DNA from: Acetobacteraceae bacterium
GTDB lineage: Bacteria > Pseudomonadota > Alphaproteobacteria > Acetobacterales > Acetobacteraceae
DNA length: 42,844 nucleotides
Direction: 5' to 3'
Assembly (NCBI GenBank): GCA_025354865.1
Contig: JANXMB010000090.1
Location: 1-42,844, forward strand
Below are positions 1 through 41,736 of this stretch, piece after piece. Numbering within the stretch: the first letter of the stretch is position 1; every line of letters begins with the position of its first letter. Below the pieces are notes generated by a model. The model saw nothing but the letters and a program-made list of their open reading frames with translations. It searched no databases and was not told where the DNA came from. The position numbers and the translations under genes were made by a program.

Positions 1-168
1 GGGTCGCGCGATTCAGACCTACGGCGATGCCGCCTTCGGTCATCGCGCAACCTGCTAATCCGGTCGCGCGATTCAGACCTACGGCGATGCCGCCTTCGGT
101 CATCGCGCAACCTGCTAATCCGGTCGCGCGATTCAGACCTACGGCGATGCCGCCTTCGGTCATCGCGC
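1..168 (+). repeat. Tandem array of a structured hairpin repeat, 60-bp period, three copies visible
   Basis: Three copies, with hairpin cores at 6-48, 66-108 and 126-168. Copies 1 and 2 are identical across the 60-bp unit from base 2. Copy 3 matches until the end of its core and then diverges. The window starts inside the array, so more copies may lie upstream. Each 43-nt core can fold as outer stem GCGCGAT/ATCGCGC, a one-sided TCA bulge, second stem GACC/GGTC, a 3x3 internal loop (TAC/TTC), top stem GGCG/CGCC and loop ATGC. A 17-nt spacer separates cores. The array lies beyond the fusA terminator. It is related to the repeats at 24929, 38309 and 40315. A REP-like element is the closest known class; that assignment is inference. 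Confidence 0.9.
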
Positions 169-176
169 TCCGCCAC

Positions 177-208
177 AAAAAAAACGCGGACGATTGCTCG
201 CCCGCGTT
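177..208 (-). terminator. Intrinsic terminator of fusA
   Basis: On the minus strand a stem AACGCGG/CCGCGTT (arms 202-208 and 183-189) closes a 12-nt loop. It is followed at once by an uninterrupted run of eight T (177-184 on the plus strand as A). It begins 28 bases after the fusA stop codon. This is the textbook rho-independent form, and the clearest terminator in the window. Confidence 0.85.
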
Positions 209-236
209 GTCCGTCGTGCCGTTGCAGCCGAAGCGC

Positions 237-2324
237 TTACGCGCTTTTGGCCATGATTTCGTCCGCAATGTTGCGCGGGACGGGATCGTAGTGATGGAAC
301 TGCATGGTGAAGGACGCGCGCCCTTTGGTCATCGACCGCAGGTGGGAAATGTAGCCGAACATTTCCTTCAGCGGTGCCTGGGCGCGGACGATCACGGTGG
401 ACCCCGAGTTTTCCTGGTTCTGGATCTGACCGCGGCGGCGGTTGAGATCGCCGACCACGTCGCCGACGTGATCCTGCGGCGTGGTGATTTCCACGTCCAT
501 GATCGGTTCCAGAATGATCGGGCTGGCGAGTTTCATGCCCTCGCGGAAGCAGGCTTTGGCGGCGATTTCGAAGGCCAGCGCGCTCGAATCGACGTCGTGG
601 TACTTGCCGTCCACCAGGGTGTATTTGAAATCGACGGTCGGGAAGCCGGCGAGCACGCCGGTATCGGCCTGCACTCTGATGCCTTTTTCCACGGCCGGGA
701 TGTATTCGCGCGGCACCGATCCGCCGACGACCTTGTTTTCGAAGTTCACGCCGACATTGCGCTCCTGCGGCTCGAACACGATCTTGACTTCGGCGTACTG
801 GCCGGACCCACCCGACTGCTTCTTGTGGGTATAGGTGTGGGTGATCGTCTTGGAGATCGTTTCACGATACGCAACCTGCGGCGCACCGATGTTGCAATCC
901 ACGCCGTATTCGCGGCGCAGGCGATCGATGATGATCTCCAGATGCAGTTCGCCCATGCCGGACAGGATGGTCTGGCCGGTTTCCTGGTCGGTTTTCAGGC
1001 GTAGGCTGGGGTCTTCGCCAGCGAGTTTCTGCAGGCCGAGGGTCATCTTCTCGACCGCTTCCTTGGTGCGCGGCTCGACCGAGATGTCGATAACCGGAAC
1101 CGGGAACGCCATCCGCTCCAGCACCACCTGATCGTCGGCCGAGGCCAGGGTGTCACCCGTGCCGGTGTCCTTCAGGCCCACGAACGCCGCGATATCGCCG
1201 GCTTCCACTTCCTTGATTTCCGCCCGCTTGTCGGCGTGCATCTGGAACATCCGGCCGATGCGCTCGCGATGGCCTTTCGTCGTGTTCATCACGGTATCGC
1301 CCGACTTCAGGGTGCCCGCGTAAACGCGCACGAAGGTCAGGGTGCCGTATTTGTCGTTGATGATCTTGAACGCGAGGCCGGCGAACGGCGCCTTCGAATC
1401 GGCTTTGATCCGGCGGCGATCCGGGTGCAGCGACTCATCCACGCCTTCTTCCAACGCCACCGCGATGCCGGGCACGTCGATTGGGCTGGGCAGGTAGTCG
1501 ATGACCGCGTCGAGCAAAGGCTGCACGCCCTTGTTTTTGAACGCCGTGCCGCACAGCACCGGACGGAACGTGCCGTCGATCGTGCCGCGCTTGATGCATT
1601 TCTTCAGGGTTTCGATCGCGACGTCGCCGTTTTCGAAATATTCTTCCATCGCCACGGTATCGACCGACAGCGCGGTGTCCAGCAGTTCCTCGCGGTATTT
1701 TGCGGCGATTTCGACCATGTCGGCGGGAATGTCTTCGTAGTGGTATTTCGCGCCGAGCTCGCCGCCTTCCCACACGATCGCCTTCATTTCCACGAGATCG
1801 ACGACGCCCAGGAACTTGTCTTCGATGCCGATCGGCAGTTGCAGCGGCAGCGCGACGATGTCCAGCTTCTCCTTCAGCGTGTCGAAGGCGCGGTAGAAGT
1901 CGGCGCCGGTGCGATCCAGCTTATTGATGAAGATGACGCGCGGGACGTTGTAACGATCCGCGAGGCGCCAGTTGGTTTCGGACTGCGGCTGCACCCCGGC
2001 CACGCCTTCGATGATGAAAATCGCGCCGTCGAGCACGCGCAGGCTGCGGTTCACTTCGATGTTGAAGTCGATATGGCCGGGCGTATCGATGATGTTGATA
2101 CGCGTTTCTTTCCAGTTGCAGGTCACGGCGGCGGACGTGATGGTGATGCCGCGTTCCCGCTCCTGATCCATGTAATCGGTCGTGGTGTTGCCATCGTGAA
2201 CCTCACCGATCCTGTGAGATTCGCCTGTGTAATACAGGATACGTTCGGTCGTGGTCGTCTTGCCGGCATCGATGTGCGCGGTAATGCCAATGTTACGAAT
2301 CTTGTCGAGCGACGTGTCGGTCAC
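237..2324 (-). CDS. fusA: Elongation factor G
   Basis: Full-length EF-G of 695 residues, the GTPase that drives ribosomal translocation and, with RRF, ribosome recycling in the cytosol. GTPase motifs are intact: G1 AHIDAGKTT at 16-24, G2 RGITIT at 58-63, G3 DTPGH at 80-84 and G4 NKLD at 134-137. Domains II to V follow at normal length. The start is GTG at 2324, preceded at 6 nt by GGAGA; an upstream ATG at 2335-2337 is out of frame. The gene stands alone: the neighbours are a terminator and repeat array downstream and a divergent DUF1800 gene upstream. The usual str-operon partners rpsL, rpsG and tuf are absent. It is either a relocated housekeeping fusA or a second copy; sequence similarity to canonical fusA is high throughout. 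Confidence 0.97.
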
Positions 2325-2532
2325 GATGTGTCTCCATGCGGCAACGGGCGCTCGATCCGGGGGTTCACCCGCGCGCCCGCGTCAATCGTCCGGCACAAAG
2401 TGGGCCGGCTCCTTCTGGCGCGGTGACATGCGGCAGAAGCGTCCGATTTGCAAGGGTTGAATGAAGCTTTTCCGCGCATGGCAGGCGCGTAGCCGACACC
2501 CTTCGTCACACGATGCCACGCGGAAATCGGCC

Positions 2533-2538
2533 TATACT
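2533..2538 (+). promoter_or_regulatory. Possible -10 element giving a leaderless DUF1800 transcript
   Basis: TATACT ends 7 nt before the ATG at 2546. If it is a -10 box, transcription would start at or next to the start codon, and no Shine-Dalgarno sequence is seen between the two. No convincing -35 box is visible at the normal distance, so this rests on a single hexamer. Confidence 0.35.
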
Positions 2539-2545
2539 GCCCGCC

Positions 2546-3835
2546 ATGGACACCGCCCCCCTGCATGCCATGGCCCGCTTCGGCCTCGGTCGCCGCCCGT
2601 CCGATCCGTTGCCCGCCGACCCGAGCGGCTGGCTGTTAGGGCAGTTGCGCGCAGCCGATGCGCCGCGATTCGACACCCCGCCCAGCACCGCGTCCGGCCT
2701 TGCCGCGCTGAACGCCGATCGCACCGAGCGACCGGAACCCGGCAAGGGGAAGGGACGCGCGTTGTTTGTGGCGGAATCGACGGTGACGTTGGAGCATGCG
2801 CTGACCACCGCGACCCCGTTCCGGGAGCGATTGGTCTGGTTCTGGACCAACCATTTCACCGTCTCCCTTCGCCGGGGGGAGTGCGCGTCCGTGGCCTGCG
2901 CCTTCGTCGAGGAAGCCATCCGCCCCCATGTCGCCGGTCCGTTTTCCGCCATGCTGCTGGCGGTCGCCCGCCACCCTGCCATGCTCCTGTATTTGGACAA
3001 CGCCGGTTCGGTTGGTCCGAACAGCGCCGCCGGACAAGCCGGCCGGCGCGGCTTGAACGAAAATCTGGCGCGAGAATGCCTGGAATTGCACACCGTCGGC
3101 GCCGGCGCCGGCTACAGCCAGGCCGATGTGACGTCGTTGGCCCGCATCCTGACGGGATGGTCGATCGAAGTGCGCGGCCTGCCGAAAGGCTTTGTCTATC
3201 GGTCCCGCGCGCACGAACCCGGCGCCCTTATGCTGATGGGGCGCCGCTTCCCGGAAGGCGAGGAAGGCGGGCGGGCTGCCCTGCAATTTCTGGCCGAACA
3301 CCCGGCGGCTTACCGGTTCCTGGCCACCAAGATGGTGCGGCATTTCGTGTCCGACACCCCCGCACCCGCCGATATCCGCCGAATCGAGGCCGCGTTACGC
3401 GACTCCGGCGGCGACTTAGGCGTTGCCGCTGCGGCACTTGTGCGGTTGGAATCGGCCTGGCAGCCGGGCACCAAGCTGCGCAGCCCGCGCGATTTCGCCA
3501 TCGCCGCCGTCCGCGCTTTGGATCTGCCGCCAACCGAGCGTCCGTCGATCCCAGCGGTGCTGCGGGTGTTGGGGGAGCCGTTTATGAACGCTCCGGCGCC
3601 GAATGGCTGGCCCGACATGGCTGCCGATTGGTCTACCCCAGAGTCGATGGTACGCCGGATCGATTGGGCCAATGCTTTCGCCCAACGCCTGGGTTCCCGC
3701 GACCCGGTGGAGGTCGCCGACCTCGCGCTGGGACCTATGCTGCGATCGGCGACCCTGGATGCGATGCGTCGCGCCGGATCGCGCCGCGATGCCTTCACCC
3801 TGATGCTCACCAGTCCGGAGTTCCAAAGGCGATGA
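2546..3835 (+). CDS. DUF1800 family protein
   Basis: A 429-residue DUF1800 protein. Typical family segments are seen: the N-terminal HAMARFGLGRRPSD, the RLVWFWTNHFTVS block near residue 95, the NENLARECLELHTVG block near 175, and RILTGWS soon after. The function of the family is not established. These proteins are nearly always encoded beside a DUF1501 protein, as here, where the stop codon overlaps the next start (ATGA). I chose the ATG at 2546 rather than one 33 bases upstream because the family motif starts directly after it. No clear signal peptide is seen, unlike its partner, so it may be carried with it or act inside the cell. The pair forms a two-gene operon. Confidence 0.88.
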   Translation: MDTAPLHAMARFGLGRRPSDPLPADPSGWLLGQLRAADAPRFDTPPSTASGLAALNADRTERPEPGKGKGRALFVAESTVTLEHALTTATPFRERLVWFWTNHFTVSLRRGECASVACAFVEEAIRPHVAGPFSAMLLAVARHPAMLLYLDNAGSVGPNSAAGQAGRRGLNENLARECLELHTVGAGAGYSQADVTSLARILTGWSIEVRGLPKGFVYRSRAHEPGALMLMGRRFPEGEEGGRAALQFLAEHPAAYRFLATKMVRHFVSDTPAPADIRRIEAALRDSGGDLGVAAAALVRLESAWQPGTKLRSPRDFAIAAVRALDLPPTERPSIPAVLRVLGEPFMNAPAPNGWPDMAADWSTPESMVRRIDWANAFAQRLGSRDPVEVADLALGPMLRSATLDAMRRAGSRRDAFTLMLTSPEFQRR

Positions 3836-4971
3836 ATATCGCACGCCGCTCGGTTTTATCGGGCCTGACCGCCGTTGCCGCCGGTTGGGGCGGTGCGTCC
3901 TTGGCGCTGGCCGCCGCTCCCGGGGAGAAGCGATTCGTCGTCATTCTGCAACGCGGCGCGATGGATGGTCTGGCGGCAATCGTGCCGCACGGCGATTCCG
4001 GTTATACCGCTTTGCGTGGGGCGCCGCCGGACGGGCTGCTGGACCTCGACGGATTTTACGGGCTGCACCCGGCACTGACCGGCATGCACGCGCTCTATAA
4101 GGCCGGCTCGGTGCTGCCGATCCACGCCGTCGCCGGCCCCTATCGCGTCCGCAGCCATTTCGAGGCGCAGGACTATCTGGAAAGCGGCACCGATCATCGG
4201 CTGACCAGCGGCTGGCTCAATCGCACCGTCGCCGCGATGGGGGCGGACGCGCTGGCGGTCGGGGTATCCTTGCCGCTGCTGCTGCGGGGGGAAGCTGCAG
4301 TCGCCAACTGGGCGCCGCAAGGTATGGCCGAGCCGGCGCCGAACCTTTACGCTGCGATCGCTGCGCTGAACGCAAGCGACAGCACGATCGGCCCCGCCAT
4401 TGCCGCGGGGCTGAAGGAACGCGGGTTCATCCACCGCACCCCGATGGATCGGCCGGACGCCACGGATCGCAATAGTTTCCCCGCTTTGGCCGCTGCCGCC
4501 GGCGCCATGCTGCGCGCGCCCGACGGGCCAAGGATCGCCGCCATGGAGATCGGCGGCTGGGATACCCATGCCTTCCAGGCCACGCGTTTGGTTGGGCCGC
4601 TGAAGCAACTCGATGCCGGATTGGTCGCATTGAAAACCGCGTTGGCGGACAAATGGCAGCAGACCGTTGTCCTGGTCATGACCGAGTTCGGCCGAACCGC
4701 CCGGCTCAACGGCACCGCCGGCACCGATCACGGCACCGCCGGCGTCGCCTTTCTGCTCGGCGGTCCCGTGCGCGGCGGGCGGGTGCAAGCGGATTGGCCG
4801 GGCCTGGGGGCCGGGCAATTGTTCGAAGATCGCGACCTCGCGCCCACCACCGACCTGCGTGCGGTGGCGAAAGGGGTGCTCAGCGCGCATCTCGGGCTCT
4901 CGGCGAGCGTGCTGGATCGGGTGTTCCCCGGCAGCGGTTCGGCATCGCCGATGCTGCAATTGGTCGGGTAA
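3832..4971 (+). CDS. DUF1501 family protein with Tat signal
   Basis: A 379-residue DUF1501 protein. DUF1501 belongs to the alkaline-phosphatase/sulfatase-like fold group by family knowledge. The first 29 residues form a twin-arginine signal: ARRSVLSG, a hydrophobic stretch, and an ALAAAPG cleavage region, so export in folded form is likely. Family landmarks include VVILQRGAMDGL near residue 36, YRVRSHFEAQDYLESG near 104, GGWDTH near 241 and VMTEFGRTARLNGT with TDHGTAG near 282-302. The start overlaps the DUF1800 stop by four bases, which implies translational coupling. The 3' end is one base from the stop of the convergent MFS gene. The physiological substrate of the pair is unknown. Confidence 0.88.
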   Translation: MNIARRSVLSGLTAVAAGWGGASLALAAAPGEKRFVVILQRGAMDGLAAIVPHGDSGYTALRGAPPDGLLDLDGFYGLHPALTGMHALYKAGSVLPIHAVAGPYRVRSHFEAQDYLESGTDHRLTSGWLNRTVAAMGADALAVGVSLPLLLRGEAAVANWAPQGMAEPAPNLYAAIAALNASDSTIGPAIAAGLKERGFIHRTPMDRPDATDRNSFPALAAAAGAMLRAPDGPRIAAMEIGGWDTHAFQATRLVGPLKQLDAGLVALKTALADKWQQTVVLVMTEFGRTARLNGTAGTDHGTAGVAFLLGGPVRGGRVQADWPGLGAGQLFEDRDLAPTTDLRAVAKGVLSAHLGLSASVLDRVFPGSGSASPMLQLVG

Positions 4972-4972
4972 T

Positions 4973-6106
4973 TCAGCCAACCACGCGGCGAAGCGGGCGG
5001 ACCAAAAGCAGCGCCGTCGCCGCCACCAGCGCCATCGCCAGGAACGCCAGACCGCCGAAATGCGCATACAGCAGCCCGGAAACGAACATCGCCGCCCCCG
5101 CCGGAATGCCGTAACCCAGGGCGGCATGCAGCGCCTGTGCGGTCGCCGCACGTTCCGGCGGGACGGCGCGACCGAGGATCGCCATCGACGACAGATGCTG
5201 CATCGCGAAGGTCCCGGCGTGCAGCAACTGCACCGCGATCAACACCGGCAGCGCTGGGGCGAACGCCATCGTCGTCCAGCGCACGACCGAAGCCACCGCC
5301 GCGCAGGCGGTCAGGCCGGAGGGACCGAGGCGCTCGATCACCGCGCGACCGCGCCAGAACAGCAAGATTTCCACGACGATCCCCTCGGCGATCAGCAGGC
5401 CGATGGTGCCGTCGCTCAGGCCTTGGGACCGCCAAAGCAGCGCGCCGAAGCCATAATAAGCGGCATGTGCGCCCTGGATCAGCGCGGTGCAGCCGACCGC
5501 CAACCGAAATGCCGGAAGGCGAAACAGCTCCCACCCACCGAAGCTGCGGGCGCGGCTGGCGGCGAGATCGGCCTCGGGCAATACCCGGCTGAACACCGTC
5601 GCCGTGCCGTAGCCGATCGCCAGCAGGAACGGCACCAGCCAGGAACCGACCGCCGTCATCAGCCAGCCCGTCCCGGCGGTCGCCAGCATGAACGTCGCCG
5701 AGCCGACGGCGCGCACCGGCCCGTATTCCATCAACCCCTGCCGCGCGAGGGAAAGCGCCAGGGAATCGGCCAGCGGATTGATGGCGGAGGCAGCGACCCC
5801 CTGCCCCGCCGCAACCAGCAGCACCGGCCAGAATCCGCCGGTCAGCGGGAATAGCAGCACCAGCGCGGTTGCGGCGATCGTGGCGCCGGTCAGCACCGGT
5901 TTGCGTCGCCCCAGCCGATCCGCCACCCCGCCCCATTGCGGCCCCGCCAGCACCCGCAGGAACGACGCGGCACTCAGGATTTGGCCGATATCGCTGGGCG
6001 ACAGGCCGCGATCGGCGTACCAAAGCGGCATGAAGCCGGTGATGCCCATGGCCGTGAAATAGGCGCCAACGAACAGCCCGACCCGCATCCCGACCGACAG
6101 GGTCAC
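4973..6106 (-). CDS. MFS transporter, HcaT (3-phenylpropionate)-like
   Basis: A 377-residue major facilitator protein with about 12 hydrophobic segments. The N-terminal block GMRVGLFVGAYFTAMGITG followed by a PLWYADRGLSPSDIGQIL stretch resembles the HcaT/MFS_1-like group, and GVADRLGRRKP is the loop 2-3 motif. I set the start at GTG 6106, whose GTGA overlaps the sufE stop. The open frame runs further upstream, but only as the antisense-like extension inside sufE. It is the last gene of ligA-ligB-sufE-MFS, so uptake of an aromatic acid for the LigAB dioxygenase is a reasonable inference. The true substrate cannot be read from sequence. Confidence 0.8.
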   Translation of the reverse strand: MTLSVGMRVGLFVGAYFTAMGITGFMPLWYADRGLSPSDIGQILSAASFLRVLAGPQWGGVADRLGRRKPVLTGATIAATALVLLFPLTGGFWPVLLVAAGQGVAASAINPLADSLALSLARQGLMEYGPVRAVGSATFMLATAGTGWLMTAVGSWLVPFLLAIGYGTATVFSRVLPEADLAASRARSFGGWELFRLPAFRLAVGCTALIQGAHAAYYGFGALLWRSQGLSDGTIGLLIAEGIVVEILLFWRGRAVIERLGPSGLTACAAVASVVRWTTMAFAPALPVLIAVQLLHAGTFAMQHLSSMAILGRAVPPERAATAQALHAALGYGIPAGAAMFVSGLLYAHFGGLAFLAMALVAATALLLVRPLRRVVG

Positions 6107-7385: not shown

Positions 7386-7389
7386 GGCG

Positions 7390-15792: not shown

Positions 15793-16986
15793 CTAAAGAG
15801 AACGAGCCGCCTTCGCATCGATCAGCGCCGCGATTTCTGCGTCGCTGAACCCGACCTCGGCCAGGATCTCCGCCGTGTGCTCCCCCAACAAGGGCACCGG
15901 CCGAGCAATGGCGGCCGGCGTGTCGGAGAAGCGGGTGGGGGGACGGGCGAGACGGACCCGCCCCTGCGTCGGGTGATCCAGCACCGGGAACATCTCCACC
16001 GCTTTCAAATGCGGCTGCTCGGTTACCTCCGCCATCCGGGTGAACGAGGTATGCGGCACATCGATACGGAGCAGCAATGCCTCCCATTCCGCGCTGGTGC
16101 GGGTCTGCGAGATTTCCCGCATTTTGGCATAGATCGCGCCGACGTTCCGGTTGCGCAACACGGGGTCGTTGACGCCGAATTCCTCGATGAGTTCGGGATG
16201 GCCCACCGCCTCAAAAAACGCGCACCAATTGGCGGCGGAATACGGCAGCATGGTCAACCAGCCGTCCTTGGTGCGCGCCGGTTTGCGTTCCCGCATGCGC
16301 TTATAGACCGGCGGGCCGACCGGGGGTTCGTAACTAAGTCCGCCCATCATCTCGACGCTGTTGAACGCCGCCAATGTTTCCAGCATGGGCACTTCGACCA
16401 TCTGGCCTTCGCCGCTTTGCGTGCGTTGAAACAGCGCGGCGCAGACCGCCGAAACCATTGCCATACCGGTCAGTTTATCCGCCACCAAACTGGGAACGAA
16501 TTGCGGTTCGTCGTCCGAACCCATGGCGCTGGCAAAACCGCTGGCGGCCTGGATGATTTCGTCGAACGCCGGACGCGCGCGCCACGGCCCGTCCTGGCCG
16601 AAGCCGGTTGCGACCGCGAAAATAATACGCGGATTGAGCGCTTTGCACGCCTCGTACCCGAAGCCCAGGCGGTTCATCCCAGCCGGTCGAATATTGGTAA
16701 CGATCGCATCGGCCGTCGGGATCAGGCGGCGCAGGGCGTCTTTCCCGCCCTCGGTTTTCAGATCGAGCGCAACCGAGCGCTTGTTGCGGTTCAATTGCAT
16801 GAAATTGGCCGCCATGCCGCGATTGCGGAACAGGCCAGAATTGCGGGCGGTGTCGCCGTTCAGCCCTTCGATCTTGATCACGTCGGCGCCCCAGTCGCCC
16901 AAAGTCTGGGTGGCGAAGGGACCCAACACAACGGTTGTCAGGTCGAGAATGCGGATGCCCTTGAGCGGGCCGGTTGCTTCGGTCAT
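15793..16986 (-). CDS. CaiB/BaiF family CoA-transferase, copy 1
   Basis: A 397-residue class III CoA-transferase, which moves CoA between carboxylic acids through an aspartyl-CoA anhydride mechanism. The catalytic aspartate is probably Asp142 in PAFDEIIQAASG. The N-terminal GIRILDLTTVVLGP, GADVIKIEG and NRNKRSVALDLK segments are family hallmarks. The chosen ATG at 16986 gives the family N-terminus; the frame is open 105 bases further but unsupported. It is divergent from a GMC oxidoreductase gene over 91 bases, which suggests shared control. It probably activates an acid product for the CoA-dependent steps encoded nearby. Confidence 0.9.
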   Translation of the reverse strand: MTEATGPLKGIRILDLTTVVLGPFATQTLGDWGADVIKIEGLNGDTARNSGLFRNRGMAANFMQLNRNKRSVALDLKTEGGKDALRRLIPTADAIVTNIRPAGMNRLGFGYEACKALNPRIIFAVATGFGQDGPWRARPAFDEIIQAASGFASAMGSDDEPQFVPSLVADKLTGMAMVSAVCAALFQRTQSGEGQMVEVPMLETLAAFNSVEMMGGLSYEPPVGPPVYKRMRERKPARTKDGWLTMLPYSAANWCAFFEAVGHPELIEEFGVNDPVLRNRNVGAIYAKMREISQTRTSAEWEALLLRIDVPHTSFTRMAEVTEQPHLKAVEMFPVLDHPTQGRVRLARPPTRFSDTPAAIARPVPLLGEHTAEILAEVGFSDAEIAALIDAKAARSL

Positions 16987-21366: not shown

Positions 21367-22359
21367 TCAGCTTCCGTCCTTGCCCCACATATTCTCCCAC
21401 ACTAGATCCTTCCAGCTCTCCGCTTTGGTTTTAAGCGTTCCGGCCTCGAACATGAAATCCGCGCCTTTTTTGAAACCTTTCGGGGTCGAGCTGTAACGCA
21501 TGATGGCGGGGTTCACGATCATTGCCTCGATCCAGGCCAGGGCGCGTTTCTGCGGTTCGCGCGCGACATAAATCTGGGCGGATTCGTGCGGGTTGGATTT
21601 GATGAAGGCGAAGGCGTCTTCCATTGCGGCGGCGGTGGCGGCGTAGAGTTTGGGGTTGGCGTCGTGGAAGCGGGGCGCGACATAAAGCGCGGAGATGGAC
21701 GAACCGGCTTCGATATAATCCTCGGAATTCATCACCAGATGCACCTTGCCGGATTCCATCATTTCGTCGGCGAAGGGGGTAATCGCGAGTTGGCTGCGCA
21801 CCGCGCCCTGCCCGCTCAAGACGATCGCCATACCGTCGGGGTTGGACATCGGCACCAGATTGGAATCGAATCTAAAACGTTGATCCCAGCCATATTCCTT
21901 CGCAGCCGCCATCTGCATTGCCAGCGCCTGGGCGGTGACTTTCAGGGCACTGATGGCGATGCGATCGTTCGGTCCGATATCTTTGATCGTTTTAATTTTC
22001 GGATCGTTGGAAAGCAGCAGAATCGGCCCGCCCGACAGCGGCGTCATGATGCGGATTTTGCCCTTGGTCTTGTCCCACAGCACGAAGGCCGGCCCGAACC
22101 CGCCCATCGCGAGGTCGGCGTCCCCGGCCAGGATCAAATCGCTACTGGCCGGCCCGCTGGCCATATGGATGACGCTGACCTTCACGTCCCCTAACCCAGC
22201 GGCTTTGGCGCGTTCCTGGATGAAGCCGCGATCGGCGGCGACGTAAACCGGCAGGTAGCCAAGCCCGAAGGGCATGACGATGCGGACTTCGTTTTGTTCC
22301 GCATGGGCACCAGACGACAGCAGCAGGAGAAGCAGGGCAAAAAGGAGAAAGCGCTTCAT
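21367..22359 (-). CDS. ABC transporter substrate-binding protein (SsuA/TauA/NMT1-like)
   Basis: A 330-residue exported solute-binding protein. The signal peptide is residues 1-20 (KR, then FALLLLLLSSG, cleavage at AHA). The mature part starts VRIVMPFGLGYLPVYVAADRG, the typical opening of the nitrate/sulfonate/NMT1-like group, with later blocks GDADLAMGGFGP and NPHESAQIYVA. The start ATG overlaps the preceding CoA-transferase stop (ATGA). No permease or ATPase lies in this operon, so it must share a transporter encoded elsewhere or act as an uptake-linked sensor. The ligand is presumably the compound degraded by the operon. Confidence 0.86.
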   Translation of the reverse strand: MKRFLLFALLLLLLSSGAHAEQNEVRIVMPFGLGYLPVYVAADRGFIQERAKAAGLGDVKVSVIHMASGPASSDLILAGDADLAMGGFGPAFVLWDKTKGKIRIMTPLSGGPILLLSNDPKIKTIKDIGPNDRIAISALKVTAQALAMQMAAAKEYGWDQRFRFDSNLVPMSNPDGMAIVLSGQGAVRSQLAITPFADEMMESGKVHLVMNSEDYIEAGSSISALYVAPRFHDANPKLYAATAAAMEDAFAFIKSNPHESAQIYVAREPQKRALAWIEAMIVNPAIMRYSSTPKGFKKGADFMFEAGTLKTKAESWKDLVWENMWGKDGS

Positions 22360-23564
22360 GATTGTCCATCCGTGTTGACGATTTTGCGGGCGATCAGGTC
22401 GTCGATATCGGCGTCGTTCAGCCCGGCCTCGGCCAGGATTTCGCGCGTGTGCTGGCCTAGTCGGGGGGCGAATTTCTCCATCGGCTTCGGCTGGGTTTCC
22501 GTCCAGGTGCTGGGTTCGCGCATCGTGCGAAGGCGGCCCTCGGACGGATGATCGACCCAATGGAAGAACCCGGCATCGGCCAGATGCGGGTCGGCCATCA
22601 GGGTTTCCAGCGTGTGCGGCACCATGCAGGGAATATCGTTCTCTTGCAGCAATGTCAGCCATTCGGCGTTGGTGCGGGTTTTCACCTCCGCCGCGATCAT
22701 GTCGTAGAGCGCGTCGATATTGGCGGTGCGGGCACCGATATCGGCGAAACGAGGATCGTTTTCCAACAGATGCCCCTTGCCCACTGCTTGGAAGAACCGT
22801 TGCCATTGCCCATCGTTATAGGGCAGCACCGCGATGTGGCCGTCCTTGCTGGGATACGGGCGGCGGCTGCGCGACAGGGTGCGGGGATAGCCCGGCGGGC
22901 TGGTCGGCGGGTCGAACGTATGGCCCTGCATATGTTCGGACAGCACAAATTGCGCCATCGTTTCGAACATCGGGACCTCGATCATCTGGCCAATCCCCGT
23001 GCGGGCTTGCACCAACAGACCGGCCAGCAAGGCATTCGCCGCCGCGCCGCCGACGATGCGATCGATCGCGGCCATCGGGATGAAGCGCTGCTCCCCGGTG
23101 GATCGTTGCAACAATGTCGGGATCGCCGAGGCCGCCTGGATCAGGTCATCGTACGCCGGCCGCCCGGCATAGCGCCCGGCGCTGCCGTAACCGACCATGC
23201 TGAGGTAGACGATTTTCGGGTTGAGAATCCGGATCGACTCGTAATCGAGGCCAAGCCGAGCGAGGGCGGCCTGACGGATATTGGATGCGAGGGCATCGAC
23301 GTGGGGTATCAGACGCAGAATGGCGTCGCGGGCTTCCTTCTGCTTCAGATCGATGGCGATGCTACGCTTGCCGCGCGCGTTGTGCTGGAACGTACCGCTC
23401 ATGCCGCGATGCTTCGGCACGCCGGTATAGCGCGAGGAATCGCCGCCGGGCGCTTCGACCTTGATCACATCGGCGCCAAAATCCGCCATGATGCGGGTAC
23501 ACCAAGGCCCCATCTGCACCGTTGTCAGGTCGAGCAAACGAATACCGGCAAGCGGGCCACTCAT
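22356..23564 (-). CDS. CaiB/BaiF family CoA-transferase, copy 2
   Basis: A 402-residue class III CoA-transferase, related to copy 1 at 15793. The opening is GIRLLDLTTVQMGPWC, and the catalytic aspartate is probably Asp139 in GRPAYDDLIQAAS. DVIKVEAPGGDSSRYTG and NARGKRSIAIDLK are the CoA-binding regions. GGAGG lies 10 nt before the ATG at 23564; the frame stays open upstream but is unsupported. It leads a four-gene operon with the binding protein, MmgE/PrpD and amidohydrolase, and is divergent from the LLM monooxygenase over 110 bases. Confidence 0.9.
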   Translation of the reverse strand: MSGPLAGIRLLDLTTVQMGPWCTRIMADFGADVIKVEAPGGDSSRYTGVPKHRGMSGTFQHNARGKRSIAIDLKQKEARDAILRLIPHVDALASNIRQAALARLGLDYESIRILNPKIVYLSMVGYGSAGRYAGRPAYDDLIQAASAIPTLLQRSTGEQRFIPMAAIDRIVGGAAANALLAGLLVQARTGIGQMIEVPMFETMAQFVLSEHMQGHTFDPPTSPPGYPRTLSRSRRPYPSKDGHIAVLPYNDGQWQRFFQAVGKGHLLENDPRFADIGARTANIDALYDMIAAEVKTRTNAEWLTLLQENDIPCMVPHTLETLMADPHLADAGFFHWVDHPSEGRLRTMREPSTWTETQPKPMEKFAPRLGQHTREILAEAGLNDADIDDLIARKIVNTDGQS

Positions 23565-24913: not shown

Positions 24914-24928
24914 CGGGCCCGTTAGATC

Positions 24929-24971
24929 GCGCGATTCAGACCTCCGGTGATCCCACCTTCGGTCATCGCGC
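24929..24971 (+). repeat. Single copy of the structured hairpin repeat, between convergent genes
   Basis: A 43-nt copy with the same fold as the 1-168 array: outer stem GCGCGAT/ATCGCGC, TCA bulge, second stem GACC/GGTC, internal loop TCC/TTC, top stem GGTG/CACC and loop ATCC. Compared with the first array the top stem changes on both sides (GGCG/CGCC to GGTG/CACC), preserving pairing. It ends one base before the gltX stop codon (TAG, minus strand) and fills most of the 59-bp space to the LLM gene. A 12-bp perfect palindrome, AACGGGCCCGTT, lies at 24912-24923 over the LLM stop. It may serve as a terminator or mRNA end-stabiliser for both genes. Confidence 0.85.
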
Positions 24972-24972
24972 T

Positions 24973-26304
24973 CTAAGCAGCGGCGATCCGTAACCGGGTC
25001 GCCGCCCGAGCGCGACCGATCAACGGCAACAGGGCCTCCAGCGAGGGGCCCTGTTCCTCCCCGGTCAGGGCAAGACGGAGCGGCATCCACAAAGCCTCCC
25101 CCACGCGGCCGGTCGTCTGCGACAGGGCGTCCGTCCAGGACCGCCACACCGTTTCGTCCCAGGGTTCGGGGGGTAGCAGCGCCTCGGCGGCGGAAAGAAA
25201 GCGGGTTTCGCCGTCGATCGGGGGCGGCACGATGGTGCCGGCTACGACTTCCCACCAGCCGCGCACCTCGTTCAATAAATCCAGGCTGCCGCGCACCGCC
25301 AGCCAGAACGCTTCCGTCGCACCGCCCGGCAGCCGGTCGGCGATCGCTGCGAAATCCAGCCGTCCCAACGCCCGGCGGTTCAACCATAGCAGTTGCGACG
25401 CATCGAACCCGGCCACGGTTTGCGCCAATCGGCCGAGATCGAAATCCCGAATGAGGTCGTCCATCGCGGCCGGCTCGCCAAGATTGCCGAGACCGATACG
25501 CGCGAGGCAGGTCGCCAAAGCGGCGGGATCGACGCCGTCGCCGCGCAGGGCGCGAACCGACAGGCTGCCGACCTTGCGCGACAGGCGCACGCGGCCGGTG
25601 TCGGCCAGGGCCGGCAGATGGGCGAACTGCACCCGGGGCGGTTTGCCGGTCAAAGCCTCCCACAAATCGAGCTGCACGCCCGTATTCGCGGCATTGTCCT
25701 CCGCGCGGATGACATGGGTGATGCCGGTTTCGATGTCGTCGATCACGCTGGCAAAAAGCGCGGTCGGGGTGCCGTCGGCACGCATCGCCACGGGGTCCGA
25801 CACCGCAGTCAGCTTCGCGTGCCGCGGCCCGCCGATCCCATCGTGCCATTCCAGCGTGCGCGGCGACAGCAGGAAGCGCCAATAAGGCTGCTTGCCGTTG
25901 GCCTCGGCCTTGGCGCGCTGTTCCCCGGTCAATTTCAGCATCGCCCGATCGTAAATCGGCGACTTGCCGCGCTTCAGCCGCTGATCGCGCTTGGCCCGCA
26001 ATTCGTCGTCGCCTTCGAAACACGGATACAGCCGGTTGGCCGCGCGCAGCCGATCCGCCGCCTTGGTGTAAAGTTCCAGCCGATCGGACTGCTGGAACGT
26101 CTCGTCCCAGCCGATTCCGAGCCAGCCGAGGTCGTGGGCAATCGCCTCGGCAAAGGCCGGTTTGGCGCGATCGCGATCGATGTCGTCGAATCGCAGCAGT
26201 ATTTTGCCACCGTGGCGACGCGCGTGCAGGTAGTTGGCAAGGGCCACGCGGGCACCGCTGACATACAGGTGACCGACCGGGCTGGGGGCGAAGCGGACGC
26301 GCAT
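24973..26304 (-). CDS. gltX: Glutamate--tRNA ligase (GluRS), atypical active-site motifs
   Basis: A 443-residue class Ic synthetase that should charge tRNA with glutamate, acting in the cytosol. The overall fold is normal: RFAPSPVG at 4-11, GKILLRFDDIDRDRA near 33-47, and a DPVAMRADGTPTALFASVIDD block near 171-190. Key motifs deviate. HIGH is replaced by LYVSG (Tyr14, Ser16). KMSKS is RLSRKVG at 240-246. The usual GEDH is AEDN at 201-204. It may be a second GluRS with narrowed specificity, such as tRNA-Gln, as many alphaproteobacteria have two. The ATG overlaps the upstream gene's stop by one base. Confidence 0.85.
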   Translation of the reverse strand: MRVRFAPSPVGHLYVSGARVALANYLHARRHGGKILLRFDDIDRDRAKPAFAEAIAHDLGWLGIGWDETFQQSDRLELYTKAADRLRAANRLYPCFEGDDELRAKRDQRLKRGKSPIYDRAMLKLTGEQRAKAEANGKQPYWRFLLSPRTLEWHDGIGGPRHAKLTAVSDPVAMRADGTPTALFASVIDDIETGITHVIRAEDNAANTGVQLDLWEALTGKPPRVQFAHLPALADTGRVRLSRKVGSLSVRALRGDGVDPAALATCLARIGLGNLGEPAAMDDLIRDFDLGRLAQTVAGFDASQLLWLNRRALGRLDFAAIADRLPGGATEAFWLAVRGSLDLLNEVRGWWEVVAGTIVPPPIDGETRFLSAAEALLPPEPWDETVWRSWTDALSQTTGRVGEALWMPLRLALTGEEQGPSLEALLPLIGRARAATRLRIAAA

Positions 26305-35116: not shown

Positions 35117-35119
35117 GCG

Positions 35120-35146
35120 ATCCTGCCTCGGTTACCCCGGCAGGAT
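35120..35146 (-). promoter_or_regulatory. Hairpin sequestering the motB ribosome binding site
   Basis: Perfect 8-bp arms ATCCTGCC (35120-35127 on plus) and GGCAGGAT (35139-35146), with an 11-nt loop. On the motB transcript the 3' arm reads GGCAGGAT and contains the AGGA that lies 4-5 nt before the ATG. When folded, the RBS is hidden. Opening by temperature, a protein or a small RNA would allow MotB synthesis. The pairing is seen directly; the regulatory role is inference. Confidence 0.55.
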
Positions 35147-35186
35147 GACGCGGAATGGTTGATAAAACGTTAACGGTTCGCCGAGT

Positions 35187-36503: not shown

Positions 36504-36705
36504 GGCGATGTCCTCCTTCGGGCCATTTGCGGCCTCTCCGACCCCTACGTTACGAGCCGCCTTCCGGCGCGGCAAGATCGGCCTTTGCGGATCGGCATTT
36601 GCTGCCGGGCGGCGGCGATTGCAGCGGTTGGGGACAGGGTTTCGGCCGAAAACCGGGGGATTGGCGATGGCCCCCGGATTGCGAGGCAGCGGGCGGAGGG
36701 CCGCA

Positions 36706-38304
36706 ATGCCAACACCGACCGCGATTCCGATGCCGACACCGCAGACTGCGCTCGCCCCTGTTCCCGGCGGACGCCCAGGCGCACGTCCTTTCTCCAGCGA
36801 CACGATGGCGCTGGGCGGGGATATTACCAACGAATTTGCAACGTATCTGGTGGCGGCACTGCCGTCCGAGCGGGCGCAGGCGGCTGCGGGGCAGCCTGCG
36901 GTCGCGCAATCGTTCCAGGTCGTTCCGACTGAGAAACCGTTGTTTGGAAAACAGCCTGAGCCTGCGCGGGCGGGTCCCGCCGATGCGTTGCCCCCTGCGG
37001 TTCCTGCGGCCGGGTTGCCGCCGGATCGGTCCCTCCCCCCCGAACCCAATAGCCTCGGGTCGAATCGCCCTGAACCGGCGCTAAACCAGCACGCCCAGCC
37101 ATCGGCACAACCGCCGACGGCCCCAAATTCGGTTGCGGGCGGGGTGCCGACCGAGACGCCGGCAACGACTGCGTCAATTAGGTCCGGAACCGCAACAAAT
37201 GAACATCCGGCGGCGATGGGGCGGGGGCAGCTACAGGGCGGCCTCGAACGGCCAACGACCGAGGTCGCAACGCCGCCGGATGCGCCCCCTGCCCCGCCCG
37301 TGCCCGCCGCCTCGGCACCCACGCCATCGCCACCCGAAGCGACACCCGACGTGCCGGCGGCCCCGGCCGACCGCAATGCCGCGCGCCCGATCGCCGCCGC
37401 CGCCGCCCCCGCCCCGGACACGGCTGGACCGGCACCGGCCTCGGTCCGCCATCGCGCGGCGGCCTCGAACGCGACCGATCGCAAGCCGGCAGGAGCGGAT
37501 AGACCGACGCCGGAGGCAGCAATCCTGCCGCCGCTTGCCCTGCCGCCGGTCGCGATCGATACGCCGCACGATGGCTGGCAGCCGCACCCACAGACCGCAA
37601 CGACCGCCGCGCCCGTGCCGGCGGTATCGGACGCGCCCGCCGGCCCCGCTGCGTCGGGACTTGCCCCCCTTGTGCCGGAGACACACCAGCCGGTCGTATC
37701 GCATGCGTCATCGTTTCCGGCGCCCGATCCGATGGCACCGGCCGGCCCGCCGCCGCTGCTGCCGGTAACCGCAGCAACGACGCAGGCGGACGCACCCCGC
37801 AGCGCACCGCCGCCGGCTACGGAACAATTGGTCCCCGTTCTAGTCTCGGTGTTTCACGATGCGGCGCATGTCGGGCACATGACGCTGCAATTGCAGCCGG
37901 ATGCGCTGGGGCATGTGCAAATCCAGATCGATCGCGGACCGAACCAACCCATGCGCATTCGCATCGACGCCGAACGCCCGGAGACCGCTTTGTTGCTGGA
38001 ACGCGACGCCCCGCAGCTCGAACACGCGCTCGACCGCGCCGGCATTGCTCGGGATGCCATGACAGTAGCGTTTCATACGGCGCCGCATGTCGCGCCGGTC
38101 GCGGCCGAGCAGGATTCGGGTCAGACGTCGTGGCAATTTCTCGGCACCGGGCAGCCGCATCAGGGTTCCGGCGGGGGGCGACCGCCGTTCGATAGCCGGC
38201 CGACCGGCGCCTCGTCGTTCGCCCCCGCAGCGTCGATCGAGGAGGCTGCCGACGCCGCGCCCTGGGCGCGAGCGGGTCGCACGGGGCTCGACATCGTTGC
38301 GTAA
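36706..38304 (+). CDS. fliK: Flagellar hook-length control protein FliK
   Basis: A 532-residue FliK-type protein, exported by the flagellar secretion system to measure hook length. Residues 1-430 are low-complexity, rich in Pro, Ala, Gly and Thr, as usual for the ruler part. The C-terminal Flg_hook domain (about 430-510) carries MTLQLQPDALGHVQIQID, the LxLxPxxLGxVxV pattern that switches secretion specificity. I chose ATG 36706 because GGAGGG lies 6 nt before it. An ATG at 36667 in the same frame is possible but has a weaker site. The stop is 4 bases before a repeat array, and flgD follows. Confidence 0.82.
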   Translation: MPTPTAIPMPTPQTALAPVPGGRPGARPFSSDTMALGGDITNEFATYLVAALPSERAQAAAGQPAVAQSFQVVPTEKPLFGKQPEPARAGPADALPPAVPAAGLPPDRSLPPEPNSLGSNRPEPALNQHAQPSAQPPTAPNSVAGGVPTETPATTASIRSGTATNEHPAAMGRGQLQGGLERPTTEVATPPDAPPAPPVPAASAPTPSPPEATPDVPAAPADRNAARPIAAAAAPAPDTAGPAPASVRHRAAASNATDRKPAGADRPTPEAAILPPLALPPVAIDTPHDGWQPHPQTATTAAPVPAVSDAPAGPAASGLAPLVPETHQPVVSHASSFPAPDPMAPAGPPPLLPVTAATTQADAPRSAPPPATEQLVPVLVSVFHDAAHVGHMTLQLQPDALGHVQIQIDRGPNQPMRIRIDAERPETALLLERDAPQLEHALDRAGIARDAMTVAFHTAPHVAPVAAEQDSGQTSWQFLGTGQPHQGSGGGRPPFDSRPTGASSFAPAASIEEAADAAPWARAGRTGLDIVA

Positions 38305-38308
38305 CGAG

Positions 38309-38463
38309 TTCCCTTCACGGTTCCGGCGCAACCGCCTCCGCCGCCCGCATGCACTATTTCGTTCCTGCGATTCACGGTTCCGGCGCAACCGCCTCCACCG
38401 ATCGCATGCACTATTTCGTTCCTGCGATTCACGGTTCCGGCGCAACCGCCTCCACCGATCGCA
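38309..38463 (+). repeat. Tandem array of the structured hairpin repeat, 57-bp period, three copies, between fliK and flgD
   Basis: Cores at 38309-38349 (degenerate), 38366-38406 and 38423-38463. The intact 41-nt core folds as outer stem TGCGAT/ATCGCA, TCA bulge, second stem CGGT/ACCG, internal loop TCC/TCC, top stem GGCG/CGCC and loop CAAC. All stems except the top one differ from the 60-bp array but remain paired. Copy 1 has lost the outer stem; its second stem survives with a G-T wobble (CGGT/GCCG). The array begins 4 bases after the fliK stop and ends about 5 bases before the flgD RBS, so three hairpins would lie inside a fliK-flgD mRNA. Confidence 0.88.
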
Positions 38464-38481
38464 TGCACAGAGGAAACCAAC

Positions 38482-39132
38482 ATGACCGTCGCCGCCGTGA
38501 CCGCAACGACCGCTGCCGCCAAATCGACCGATCCGCTGGCGTCTTTGACGTCCAACATGACCGATTTCCTCAAACTGCTGATGACGCAGCTGAAGAACCA
38601 GGACCCCACCACCCCGATGGACACCACCCAGTTCACCGCCCAACTGGTGCAATTCGCCAGTGTGGAGCAGCAGGTCAACATCTCCTCCGGCGTGCAGTCG
38701 CTGATCCAGCTCGCGCAATCCACCAACGTGCTGCAAGCCTCCGGCCTGATCGGCAAGACGGTCACCGCGCAGGCGTCGCAGATCGCCTTGCAGAGCGGAA
38801 CCGGCAGCCTCCAGTTCGATACCCCAGCCGCCGAACCGGTGACCGTCACCGTGACCGGTAGCAATGGGGCAAGGGTTGCGCAGGCTTCCCTCACCAGCAC
38901 CGCCGGACACAACACCTGGACCTGGGACGGGCGCAACAGCAGTGGCAGCACGATGCCGGATGGCGCCTATGCGGTCTCGGTCGAGGGCGGAACGATCGGC
39001 ACTGTCGCCAAGCCGATATCGTTCACCATCACGGGCAAAGCGACGGGCACGACCACGGAAAACAATGCGCAGAAAGTACAAATCGGGCCACTGAGCTTGC
39101 CGGTCGCCGCTATCCTGGCGGTAACGAATTGA
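38482..39132 (+). CDS. flgD: Flagellar hook assembly scaffold protein FlgD
   Basis: A 216-residue hook-capping protein that directs FlgE assembly and is itself removed from the mature flagellum. The N-terminal export/cap domain has DFLKLLMTQLKNQDPTTPM at about 28-46 and LVQFASVEQQVNIS. A FlgD Ig/Tudor-like domain follows, with NTWTWDGRNSSGSTMPDGAY. AGAGGAAA precedes the ATG. The last 23 bases overlap the end of a convergent glycosyltransferase gene. The hairpin array upstream separates it from fliK. Confidence 0.93.
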   Translation: MTVAAVTATTAAAKSTDPLASLTSNMTDFLKLLMTQLKNQDPTTPMDTTQFTAQLVQFASVEQQVNISSGVQSLIQLAQSTNVLQASGLIGKTVTAQASQIALQSGTGSLQFDTPAAEPVTVTVTGSNGARVAQASLTSTAGHNTWTWDGRNSSGSTMPDGAYAVSVEGGTIGTVAKPISFTITGKATGTTTENNAQKVQIGPLSLPVAAILAVTN

Positions 39133-40258
39133 TCCGGCGCAGTACCGACACGAATATTGCGATCGCGATCGGCGCCGCCAGCGGGATATGCAGCCACAGT
39201 GCGGTGGCCGAGGATACCGCCGGCAGCGCAAAACCGAGCATGAGGATGCATTTCTCCCACGGGAGAAAGCGGCTGGCCCGGGCTTCGCACCAAAGCCACA
39301 GCAGCGGAATCGCCAGAAGCACGAAATCGTATGCCAGCAGAAACGGACTGGCCAGCAAAGCTGCGGCCGCGAGGGCGGCACCGATCGCCGGCGCACCGGG
39401 ACTTTTGCGACAGGCCGCCGCCAGCCCCACAGCGGCAGTCAACGCCAACAGGGCCTGCGCGACGTAACCAAGGGTCGCGCTGCCGCCGAACAGGCGGATC
39501 GCGGCAAACAGGCTTTGCATTTTATAGTCGCCGACCATGCCATGCTCCAGCACCGCGCGTGCCACGGCGGTGCTGCCCCAGAACCCGACCCAGGCGCCCG
39601 GCCCCAGCACGGCGACCGATAGCGCCACCAGCGCCGTCGCCGATCCGATGGCCGCGAAGGCGGTGCGCCAACGCCCGCCCGCCAGCAGCGCCACCGGCAC
39701 CATCGCCAGGAAATGCGGCTTATAGATCAGCCCGCCGAACAACAGCCCAGCCAGCACCGGGCGCGTGTCGAGGTAACGGATTCCGCCCGCAAACAGCGCC
39801 GCCGTCAGGAAGCCATTCTGGCCATGCCCGACATTCGACCAAATCGCCGGGAAGGCCAGCAGCGCTCGGTATTGCCCCCGAACGCCGTTCCCGATCGCCG
39901 CGAGGAACAACAAACCGGTCGCCGCCAGCCAGGCCGCCAAGGCCCAGCCGTACGGCAACAGCGCCAAGGGCAGGCAAATCGCCAGGAACACTGGGGGATA
40001 GAAAAACGCCGTGTAGTTCAGCGCCGCTCCGTCGAAGGCGGCACGCTGCGCTTCCATGTGCACCGCGACGTCGTAGACCCGCGCCGGCCCATCGGTCAGA
40101 GCGACCAGCGAGGCCGCCCAGAACGAGACAAAATCGGTCCCCAGCGGCCGTCCGACGAAGTCCAACCCGCCGTGGGAGCCGCCGACCACGACGACCACGG
40201 CCAGCGCCTGCACGACCAGGAAAATATCGCGGTAGGCGGACGCCCGCGCCGGGGTCAT
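39110..40258 (-). CDS. GT87-type membrane glycosyltransferase (DUF2029)
   Basis: A 382-residue polytopic protein with about ten hydrophobic segments, resembling the GT87/DUF2029 group of polyprenyl-phosphate-sugar-dependent transferases (mannosyltransferases of the PimE type). The GTDFVSFWAAS stretch near residue 42 in the first periplasmic loop holds the probable catalytic aspartate. The loop with NYTAFFYPPVFLAICLPLALL follows. I chose ATG 40258 because GGGAGG lies 8 nt upstream; an ATG 33 bases earlier has no RBS. The 3' end overlaps flgD. The acceptor is unknown; surface polysaccharide or flagellin-related glycosylation is conjecture. Confidence 0.75.
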   Translation of the reverse strand: MTPARASAYRDIFLVVQALAVVVVVGGSHGGLDFVGRPLGTDFVSFWAASLVALTDGPARVYDVAVHMEAQRAAFDGAALNYTAFFYPPVFLAICLPLALLPYGWALAAWLAATGLLFLAAIGNGVRGQYRALLAFPAIWSNVGHGQNGFLTAALFAGGIRYLDTRPVLAGLLFGGLIYKPHFLAMVPVALLAGGRWRTAFAAIGSATALVALSVAVLGPGAWVGFWGSTAVARAVLEHGMVGDYKMQSLFAAIRLFGGSATLGYVAQALLALTAAVGLAAACRKSPGAPAIGAALAAAALLASPFLLAYDFVLLAIPLLWLWCEARASRFLPWEKCILMLGFALPAVSSATALWLHIPLAAPIAIAIFVSVLRRINSLPPG

Positions 40259-40314
40259 CCAATTGGCCTCCCGCAGCCAACTCAACCCCATGTCGGCTGC
40301 CGCGGGGACGCCGC

Positions 40315-40422
40315 GCGATTCACGGCGACGCCGATCGCACGCCCATATCTGTGCGGGCGATTCACGGCGACGCCGATCGCACGCCCATATCTGTGCGGGC
40401 GATTCACGGCGACGCCGATCGC
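40315..40422 (+). repeat. Tandem array of a short hairpin repeat, 42-bp period, three copies
   Basis: Cores at 40315-40338, 40357-40380 and 40399-40422, identical to one another. The 24-nt core folds as outer stem GCGAT/ATCGC, TCA bulge, second stem CGGC/GCCG and loop GAC. The internal loop and top stem of the longer forms are missing. It keeps the GAT-TCA junction and the closing ATC of the other family members. An 18-nt spacer with CATATCTGTGCGG repeats with it. The array fills most of the 167-base gap between two minus-strand genes and ends 3 bases before the MFS stop codon. Confidence 0.88.
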
Positions 40423-40425
40423 ACG

Positions 40426-41736
40426 CTAGGCCGGGATCGCGACCGTGCGCGGTTGGTTGCGCCCAACCATCGCCACCGAGATCGCCCCGATCGCCGCAAC
40501 CACCGCGATCGGCATGATCGCCAGCGGGAAGCTACCGGTTTCGTCCTTGATCCAACCGATCATGTAGTTGAAGAAAAACCCCGACAAATTGCCCAGCGCG
40601 TTGATCTGGGCCAGACCGGCGGCGGCGGTCGTGGCGCCCAGCCACTCCGACGACAGCGCCCAGAACGGGCCTTTGCTGGCATAGGTGCCGGCCGCAATCA
40701 GCGTCATCAGCGGGATCACCACCCAGATATCCTTGATGAACCAGAATGTTGCCACCATAGCCACAACCATCCAGGCCAGCGGCAGGGCGTTGTGCCACAC
40801 GCGCTCCCCGGTGCGATCGGAATTGCGGCCCCATAGGATCATCCACACCGCCGCGATGCCGAACGGAATGGCATTCACCAGACCGGTCTGGAAATTGGTC
40901 AGGCCGAACGATTTCACCAGCGCCGGCAGCCACAGCGCCAGGGAGGTCGAAGCGCCCGCCGCACCGGCGTAGACCAGTGCCATAACCAACACGTATTTAT
41001 TGCGCATGACCTTCCACACCGACTGGTGCCCGATTTTCGACTGCCGCCTTCCCTCGGCCGCCAGCCGGGCGATCAGCCATTGTTGTTGCTGCGGCGGCAG
41101 CCAGGGCGCGTGCTCCGGCCGATCCGTCAGCCAATAGAACGATGCAACGCCCAGCAGCAGGGTTGGCACCGCTTCGAGGATGAAAATCCACTGCCAGCCG
41201 CCAAGACCGAGCACCCCGTCCATCCCGAGGATGGCGCCGGAGATGGGGGAGCCGATCAGCCCGGCCACGGGGATTGCCACCATGAAGATGCCGACAATTT
41301 TCGCCCGATAGACCGCCGGGAACCAATACGTGAGGTAAAGGATCACGCCGGGGAAGAACCCGGCCTCGGCCGCGCCGAGCAGGAAGCGCAGCACGAGGAA
41401 GGAGGTGGGACCGCCGATCAGGGCGAAGGCGCCGGAAATGACCCCCCAGCTCAACATGATGCGGGCGATCCATTTGCGGGCGCCGAAACGTTCCAGTCCC
41501 AGATTGCTTGGCACTTCGAGGATGAAATAGCCGATGAAGAAGATGCCGGCGCCCAGCCCGTAGGTCTTGGGGTCGATGCCCACGGCCTTGTTCATCTGCA
41601 ACGAAGCGAAGCCCACGTTGACCCGATCGATGTAACAAAGCAGGTAGGCCAATATGAGAAAGGGCATCAGTCGCCAGGAAACCCGGCGCATGGTAGCGGC
41701 CTCCAGGGCCTTATCGTCGAGCAAGCTGTCAGCCAT
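40426..41736 (-). CDS. MFS transporter, anion:cation symporter type, copy 2
   Basis: A 436-residue ACS-type major facilitator, a paralogue of the gene at 35187. LLCYIDRVNVGFASLQMNKA near 33-52 and RFLLGAAEAGFFPGVILYL near 112 are the family marks, with 12 membrane segments. AAGGGAG precedes the ATG by about 8 nt. It lies between two glycosyltransferase-like genes on the same strand, 40 bases after the upstream one. The downstream gap carries the 42-bp repeat array. Organic-anion uptake is expected; the substrate is not predictable. Confidence 0.9.
   Translation of the reverse strand: MADSLLDDKALEAATMRRVSWRLMPFLILAYLLCYIDRVNVGFASLQMNKAVGIDPKTYGLGAGIFFIGYFILEVPSNLGLERFGARKWIARIMLSWGVISGAFALIGGPTSFLVLRFLLGAAEAGFFPGVILYLTYWFPAVYRAKIVGIFMVAIPVAGLIGSPISGAILGMDGVLGLGGWQWIFILEAVPTLLLGVASFYWLTDRPEHAPWLPPQQQQWLIARLAAEGRRQSKIGHQSVWKVMRNKYVLVMALVYAGAAGASTSLALWLPALVKSFGLTNFQTGLVNAIPFGIAAVWMILWGRNSDRTGERVWHNALPLAWMVVAMVATFWFIKDIWVVIPLMTLIAAGTYASKGPFWALSSEWLGATTAAAGLAQINALGNLSGFFFNYMIGWIKDETGSFPLAIMPIAVVAAIGAISVAMVGRNQPRTVAIPA

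Follow-up and report, generated by a model that had tools for sequence, protein, structure and literature searches.

The window analysed here covers positions 1 to 42,844 of contig JANXMB010000090.1, from an Acetobacteraceae bacterium (assembly GCA_025354865.1, hereafter the source genome). It carries four groups of small bulged hairpins, sites A to D (Table 1), and Pfam assigns the genes flanking them to elongation factor G (EF-G), a luciferase-like monooxygenase, a Glu/Gln tRNA synthetase, FliK-like and FlgD-like proteins, a GT87 glycosyltransferase and a major facilitator superfamily (MFS) transporter. The hairpin, which we call H2, contains an invariant GAT-TCA...ATC bulge and recurs throughout the genome. 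In our judgement the evidence is evenly balanced on whether these repeats are very small non-autonomous mobile elements, of the repetitive extragenic palindrome (REP) or miniature inverted-repeat transposable element (MITE) type, that are moved in trans by a transposase for which the IS630 (Tc1/mariner-type) enzyme is the best single candidate.

Bulged hairpins at four sites

For detection we used a covariance model, R1, built from 40 source-genome sequences and run over the window at full sensitivity. All ten sites named in the original prediction were recovered; because three of the training sequences are window copies, their high scores are expected by construction. The prediction had given all ten copies one fold, which holds for nine of them. 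The first copy of site C (38315-38343) has lost its outer stem and aligns to model positions 8-36 only, at 21.4 bits, and the site D copies are a short form without the top stem. A control independent of R1, allowing any 5+4-bp stem with any 3-nt 5' bulge, gave 54 matches in the window. TCA was the most frequent bulge with nine, every one a named copy, followed by ATC with five. DNA folding of one copy per site returned the predicted stems; 1, 3, 8 and 1 of 200 shuffles folded as well as the four site copies, and the short form of site D was the weakest (z -1.7).

Table 1. Repeat sites of the window and the stop codons that they supply
Feature	Position	Strand	Details
Site A, three tandem H2	6..168; hairpins 6-48, 66-108, 126-168	+	60-nt period; R1 69.7 bits each
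Site B, single-H2 element	24923..24975; hairpin 24929-24971	+	TA at 24923-24924 and 24974-24975; R1 70.6 bits
Stop codon TAG, class I Glu/Gln tRNA synthetase gene	24973..24975	-	site B contributes its terminal TA
Site C, 57-nt-period array	38315..38464; intact hairpins 38365-38407, 38422-38464	+	R1 52.6 bits each
Site D, three short-form copies	40313..40428; hairpins 40313-40340, 40355-40382, 40397-40424	+	42-nt period; R1 22.8-24.2 bits
Stop codon TAG, MFS transporter gene	40426..40428	-	site D contributes its terminal TA

The EF-G gene (237-2324, minus strand) has site A on its downstream side, where the contig ends inside the array (window 1-168). A second contig, C188 (L401), has the matching right flank, two copies and the left flank. 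The assembly, and with it the copy number of the array, is thus ambiguous here. The array of site C, between the fliK-like and flgD-like genes, is absent between these genes in three relatives. At site D the right end of the array is CTAG; the MFS gene stops at the same codon in eight of ten relatives, and in the other two the gene end was not located by our script. Elsewhere in the window, two minus-strand genes (15793-16986 and 22356-23537) share stretches of 78% identity and are probably paralogues.

Copy number, covariation and layout of the repeat family

The source genome comprises 4.76 Mb in 190 contigs. The pattern GCGATTCA-N8..38-ATCGC matched it 201 times and its reversed control not at all; of the roughly half that were listed, a few are due to chance or overlap. 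R1 found at least 150 copies. While TCA lies on the plus strand at all four window sites, as had been noted, both strands are used about equally across the genome (104 forward and 97 reverse matches). Only three of 105 clusters fall within a called gene, and 83 lie between codirectional (43) or convergent (40) genes. The repeats fit a broad definition of REPs as intergenic palindromes of 20-65 nt with a high copy number, and the suspected REP-like or MITE-like structured family is borne out.

The stems covary, as had been proposed by eye. Five pairs were left free by the search, and among 79 distinct matches these were Watson-Crick in 76, 76, 75, 74 and 70, whereas shuffling gave means of 62, 41, 42, 49 and 40. 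Additionally, alignment A1 showed two-sided change in 8 of 15 pairs, with 35 cells against 9.5 in shuffled data and none of 500 shuffles as high; in this alignment GAT/ATC and the three outer pairs beside it are fixed or nearly so through sequence selection. Outer stems in congeners read GCGGGAT/ATCCCGC or GCGTGAT/ATCACGC and inner stems CGCC, CGGC, CGTC or CCGC. The covariation is real. Compensatory stem change is, however, not specific to RNA, as DNA hairpins show it too.

The repeats are not confined to this genome, and the suggestion that they might be new to the lineage did not survive sampling of the bacterial family. At E <= 1e-5 (R1 E-values are rough), 101 of 249 Acetobacteraceae genomes and 49 of 102 genera have matches. 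Among the matches listed, 80 records bear the titles Acetobacteraceae, Acidisphaera, Acidocella, Asaia, Rhodospirillales, Alphaproteobacteria or Proteobacteria. Of the 23 other genomes in the genus, 12 match at E <= 0.001 and 11 have no match; G010 has 132 copies, G015 has 112 and the other matching genomes 1-21. Sixteen genomes from other families of the class yielded one single weak match (E 1.2e-4).

Reading the copies in context showed that H2 is often only the right half of a composite element, TA-H1-TA-linker-H2-TA. The original prediction thus covered half of the usual element; it did not extend to H1, the linker or the TA ends, nor to the two sister families. A typical family-1 element reads YTA-[H1]-TAR-linker-[H2]-TCTAR; measured from the first TA to the last, the one in L006 is ~104 nt long. 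The H1 part is palindromic, for example GATCGCGAT...ATCGCGATC, and its arms vary with pairing retained (GATCGCGAT, GACCGCGAT, GCGTGCGAT, GACCACGAT, GATCTCGAT). In 69 H1 candidates the left arm is preceded by CTA in 25 and TTA in 19, the right arm is followed by TA in 59, and the linker is 14 nt long in 53. By a stricter definition of H1 we counted 29 beside GATTCA and two alone in the source genome, 29 and seven at the named loci, and none in a shuffled control.

Other arrangements also occur. Ten source-genome H2 hairpins, site B among them, have TA directly to their left; therefore single-hairpin units of about 50 nt exist. The third arrangement consists of tandem arrays of linker-H2 units. 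The commonest tails of terminal family-1 H2 hairpins are TCTAG (23), TCTAA (18), TCTAT (8), TTTAG (5) and TCTAC (5), together 59 of 104. In L010, L020 and L127, adjoining elements have one CTAG in common. As in IS630-type MITEs, TA is found at both ends, though degenerate or array-internal ends lack it.

The 104 source-genome stretches in which elements were read (322 kb, picked for carrying copies) hold 149 hairpins of distinct context, of which 140 belong to family 1, five to family 2 and four to family 3. Common to all three are GAT-TCA...ATC, a linker with TTTGTTTG or near it, and the layout; the stems and ends differ. Family 2 composites (L004, L010, L020, L115, L140) keep the H1-linker-H2 layout, with CTAGTGGTC... 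ends and a long CCTAACGCTTG/CAAGCGTTAGG inner stem, and a relative in L062, from another species, has an altered stem with intact pairing. Family 3 composites (L043, L096, L120, L127) have a CTAGACCATGATC... left end and a GAGGTTGA inner stem; in L120 such an element is joined at TCTA to a family-1 linker-H2. Further loci in Acetobacteraceae records (L158, L159, L160, L170, L183) contain other TA-bounded palindromes that start with, for example, TAGAGC or TAGGGGGG and have no GATTCA nearby.

Stop codons and differences between close species

Element ends favour YTAR, and the association with stop codons seen in the window extends to the genome. Using gene calls from a home-made codon score, we found 74 right ends with YTA, of which 45 are met by a gene. 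In 28 of these the terminal TA and the first base of the element make up the stop codon exactly; in 15 the gene stops before the element and in two inside it. Composite left ends with TA number 45, and the stop coincides in 10 of the 19 that are met by a gene. At control YTAR sites away from elements, the stop coincides in 25 of 371, or 25 of the 93 met by a gene. YTAR is rare in the coding part of the window, with 11 in 27.7 kb, and TAA or TAG ends 14 of the 22 genes used; stop codons are therefore natural landing places.

Relatives within the genus are too distant for a comparison of empty sites (67-84% identity), and we therefore chose genus g61. Its genomes G252 and G162 represent close species, about 94% identical (90-95%), and 220 kb were aligned in 12 stretches. 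They differ by 13 H2-bearing indels at separate loci and by four changes in array length. The 13 include event 1, probably a remnant, and a 266-nt indel containing N, which was counted with its junction unread; indels of 233 and 78 nt are not repeats and were excluded. Among the 12 junctions read, two empty sites are visible, CTAA and CTAG, both YTAR. In event 3 the empty site is GAACCTAACCCC and the filled site GAACCTGA...GGTCTAACCCC; in event 7 the empty site is the stop codon GTCTAGCCC and the filled site GGGTAG...TTCAGCCC.

Two observations from this pair stand apart. In event 6 a 66-nt repeat, a multiple of three, lies inside a coding gene of G162 (L392:3313-3443) and is missing from G252; it recalls the Rickettsia palindromic elements found inside genes. 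On the G252 chromosome the clusters are unevenly spread, with 38 of 75 within 2.4-3.6 Mb and one within 1.2-1.6 Mb.

Candidate movers and competing explanations

Similar to GTAG REPs and REP doublets (REPINs) with a REP-associated tyrosine transposase (RAYT), the present repeats are small extragenic palindromes of high copy number that occur, paired or in arrays, between genes that are codirectional or convergent (accessible text of PMC3733652). The GTAG ends of REPs often supply a TAG stop codon (same source). GTAG REPs have a fixed tag, whereas the 59 commonest tails here correspond to CTAG 23, TTAG 18, ATAG 8, CTAA 5 and GTAG 5, so that the GTAG equivalent, a TCTAC tail, accounts for five of 104 terminal tails. 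The present repeats also differ in their invariant TCA bulge and in that no Y1 transposase was found in the source genome. CGTC REPs are likewise alphaproteobacterial and have no dedicated transposase known in the accessible text of PMC3733652, which describes 8-9-bp stems, a CGTC tag and a CCA-like tail and reports them missing from Acetobacteraceae. Compared by eye with that description, source-genome copies lack the CGTC tag and such a stem. Br-REP1 and Br-REP2 of Bradyrhizobium, another alphaproteobacterium, are multi-hairpin repeats in the 3' untranslated regions of convergent genes; their consensus differs in sequence and layout (accessible part of PMC5082802). Our literature search found no paper on the present repeats; most subscription journals lay outside it, and absence from print is not shown.

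The likeness to MITEs of IS630/Tc1-mariner type concerns the ends: TA on both sides, ends matching within a family, and YTAR sites, which the IS630 copies of the genus also occupy. The present repeats differ in being far smaller and strongly folded, in the invariant bulge and the two-hairpin layout, and in that no autonomous partner with their ends was found. Of 32 IS630 loci examined in the genus, 10 have a candidate terminal repeat; nine were read, and seven of these sit in YTA[G...C]TAR. Three IS630 copies start with GAGCGC, GAGCAC and GAGCGG. The IS630 transposase is identified by NF033545. IS630 is known to prefer CTAG. The YTA[G...C]TAR signature is common to IS630 ends and repeats, and the leading, though unproven, candidate for the mover is therefore an IS630-type enzyme that works in trans.

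According to this proposal, the mobile unit would be H2 with its bulge, either alone between two TAs, behind H1 as a composite, or in linker-H2 arrays. Units would settle at YTAR, chiefly at gene 3' ends and often within the stop codon, which would survive insertion because the element begins with G or A after TA. The TA would be duplicated upon insertion, and the bulge may serve as the recognition mark of a mover that works in trans and is something other than a RAYT. The mixed orientation of the repeats relative to codirectional genes (19 clusters same, 24 opposite), which departs from the constant orientation of a structured RNA, speaks for a unit at the DNA level.

Several findings weigh against the IS630 proposal. 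DDE_3 (IS630) matches, present in 20 of 23 congeners, are out of step with the repeats: G010 combines 132 repeats with no DDE_3 match, G015 112 with one, and the source genome at least 150 with two. Among the IS630 loci of the genus no copy was found that has the ends of the repeats, and in the three copies above the terminal likeness extends over only 5-9 bases. Units of ~50 nt with a single hairpin seem too short for a double-strand cut-and-paste synapse. At the junctions, flank copies are imperfect for both visible empty sites, event 5 (beside a start codon) and event 6 show no TA, and most of the 12 leave the target undecided. Finally, binding to terminal repeats alone leaves the invariant TCA and the covarying inner stems unexplained.

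Other candidates were examined. The original prediction had pointed to a RAYT. A Y1_Tnp profile search that was positive in 5 of 14 control genomes gave no match in the source genome; among the 23 congeners four have one, and all four lack R1 matches. A RAYT as mover is thus not supported by these genomes. The four DDE_Tnp_1 matches in the source genome belong to genes whose ends do not match the repeats. An autonomous partner beside the repeats was sought by comparing 6,364 open frames, all versus all, across 254 loci (263 minus nine duplicates). None stood out among the 45 largest clusters of frames, which resemble common host genes when judged by eye. They include one small transposase-like cluster (L007, L261 and L263), in which L007 and L261 are one place with a short-form H2 adjoining.

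Ranking next after an IS630-type enzyme is a structure-recognising enzyme unrelated to it, perhaps acting on single-stranded DNA, that reads the bulged hairpin itself. We regard this as unlikely, although it would account for a GAT-TCA/ATC mark that stays constant while stems and ends drift among families and species, and for units down to about 50 nt. Read along the strand without TCA, the unit shows 5'-YTAG and then a bulged hairpin, arranged as in REP substrates; in the accessible text of PMC6006769, the hairpin of TnpA-REP substrates carries a tetranucleotide at its 5' foot, and REPs of hairpin-bulge-hairpin shape are tied to Y1 enzymes. However, no such transposase was found in the source genome or its repeat-rich congeners, and no bias towards either replication strand was found. 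In single-contig G252, 37, 34 or 33 of 75 clusters lie on the leading strand under three placements of origin and terminus (the GC skew is weak), and contig-wise strand concordance in the source genome is 58 of 100 pairs (shuffle P 0.07). As a clue to the strand, the mismatches (33 A-C against 15 G-T, 17 of the A-C at one pair) are ambiguous.

It is more doubtful still that the repeats are retained mainly as RNA structures at transcript 3' ends, acting in mRNA stability or termination, with mobility old and secondary. Their placement between codirectional or convergent genes and their covarying stems would suit such a role, and REPs have been described as RNA elements (accessible text of PMC3733652). 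Yet their orientation is mixed, sites differ between close species, and an Rfam search of the window returned no family at its cut-off. Least probable, in our view, is a spread of old copies through slippage, recombination and gene conversion with no transposition at all. Tandem arrays of identical units whose lengths change between close species would be expected from these processes; scattered copies that share the same kind of end, nested elements with a common CTAG, and single copies in one species whose flanks are both intact in the other would not.

With the IS630-type enzyme still our leading candidate, we tentatively raise a broader possibility, which we hold to be less than probable: that these repeats form a third large bacterial REP-like class beside GTAG and CGTC, family-wide and aimed at stop codons, moved by an enzyme that recognises the folded GAT-TCA/ATC mark and not a set sequence at the ends. 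If so, stems and ends would be free to drift, and new sub-families would keep arising. How alphaproteobacterial REPs move without a dedicated transposase was an open question in 2013 (accessible text of PMC3733652). The present repeats run through a whole family, their ends are defined, a target is favoured and copies differ between closely related species, which makes a direct search for the mover possible. The stop-codon habit also illustrates how a TA-directed element can find room in GC-rich, gene-dense genomes without doing much harm.

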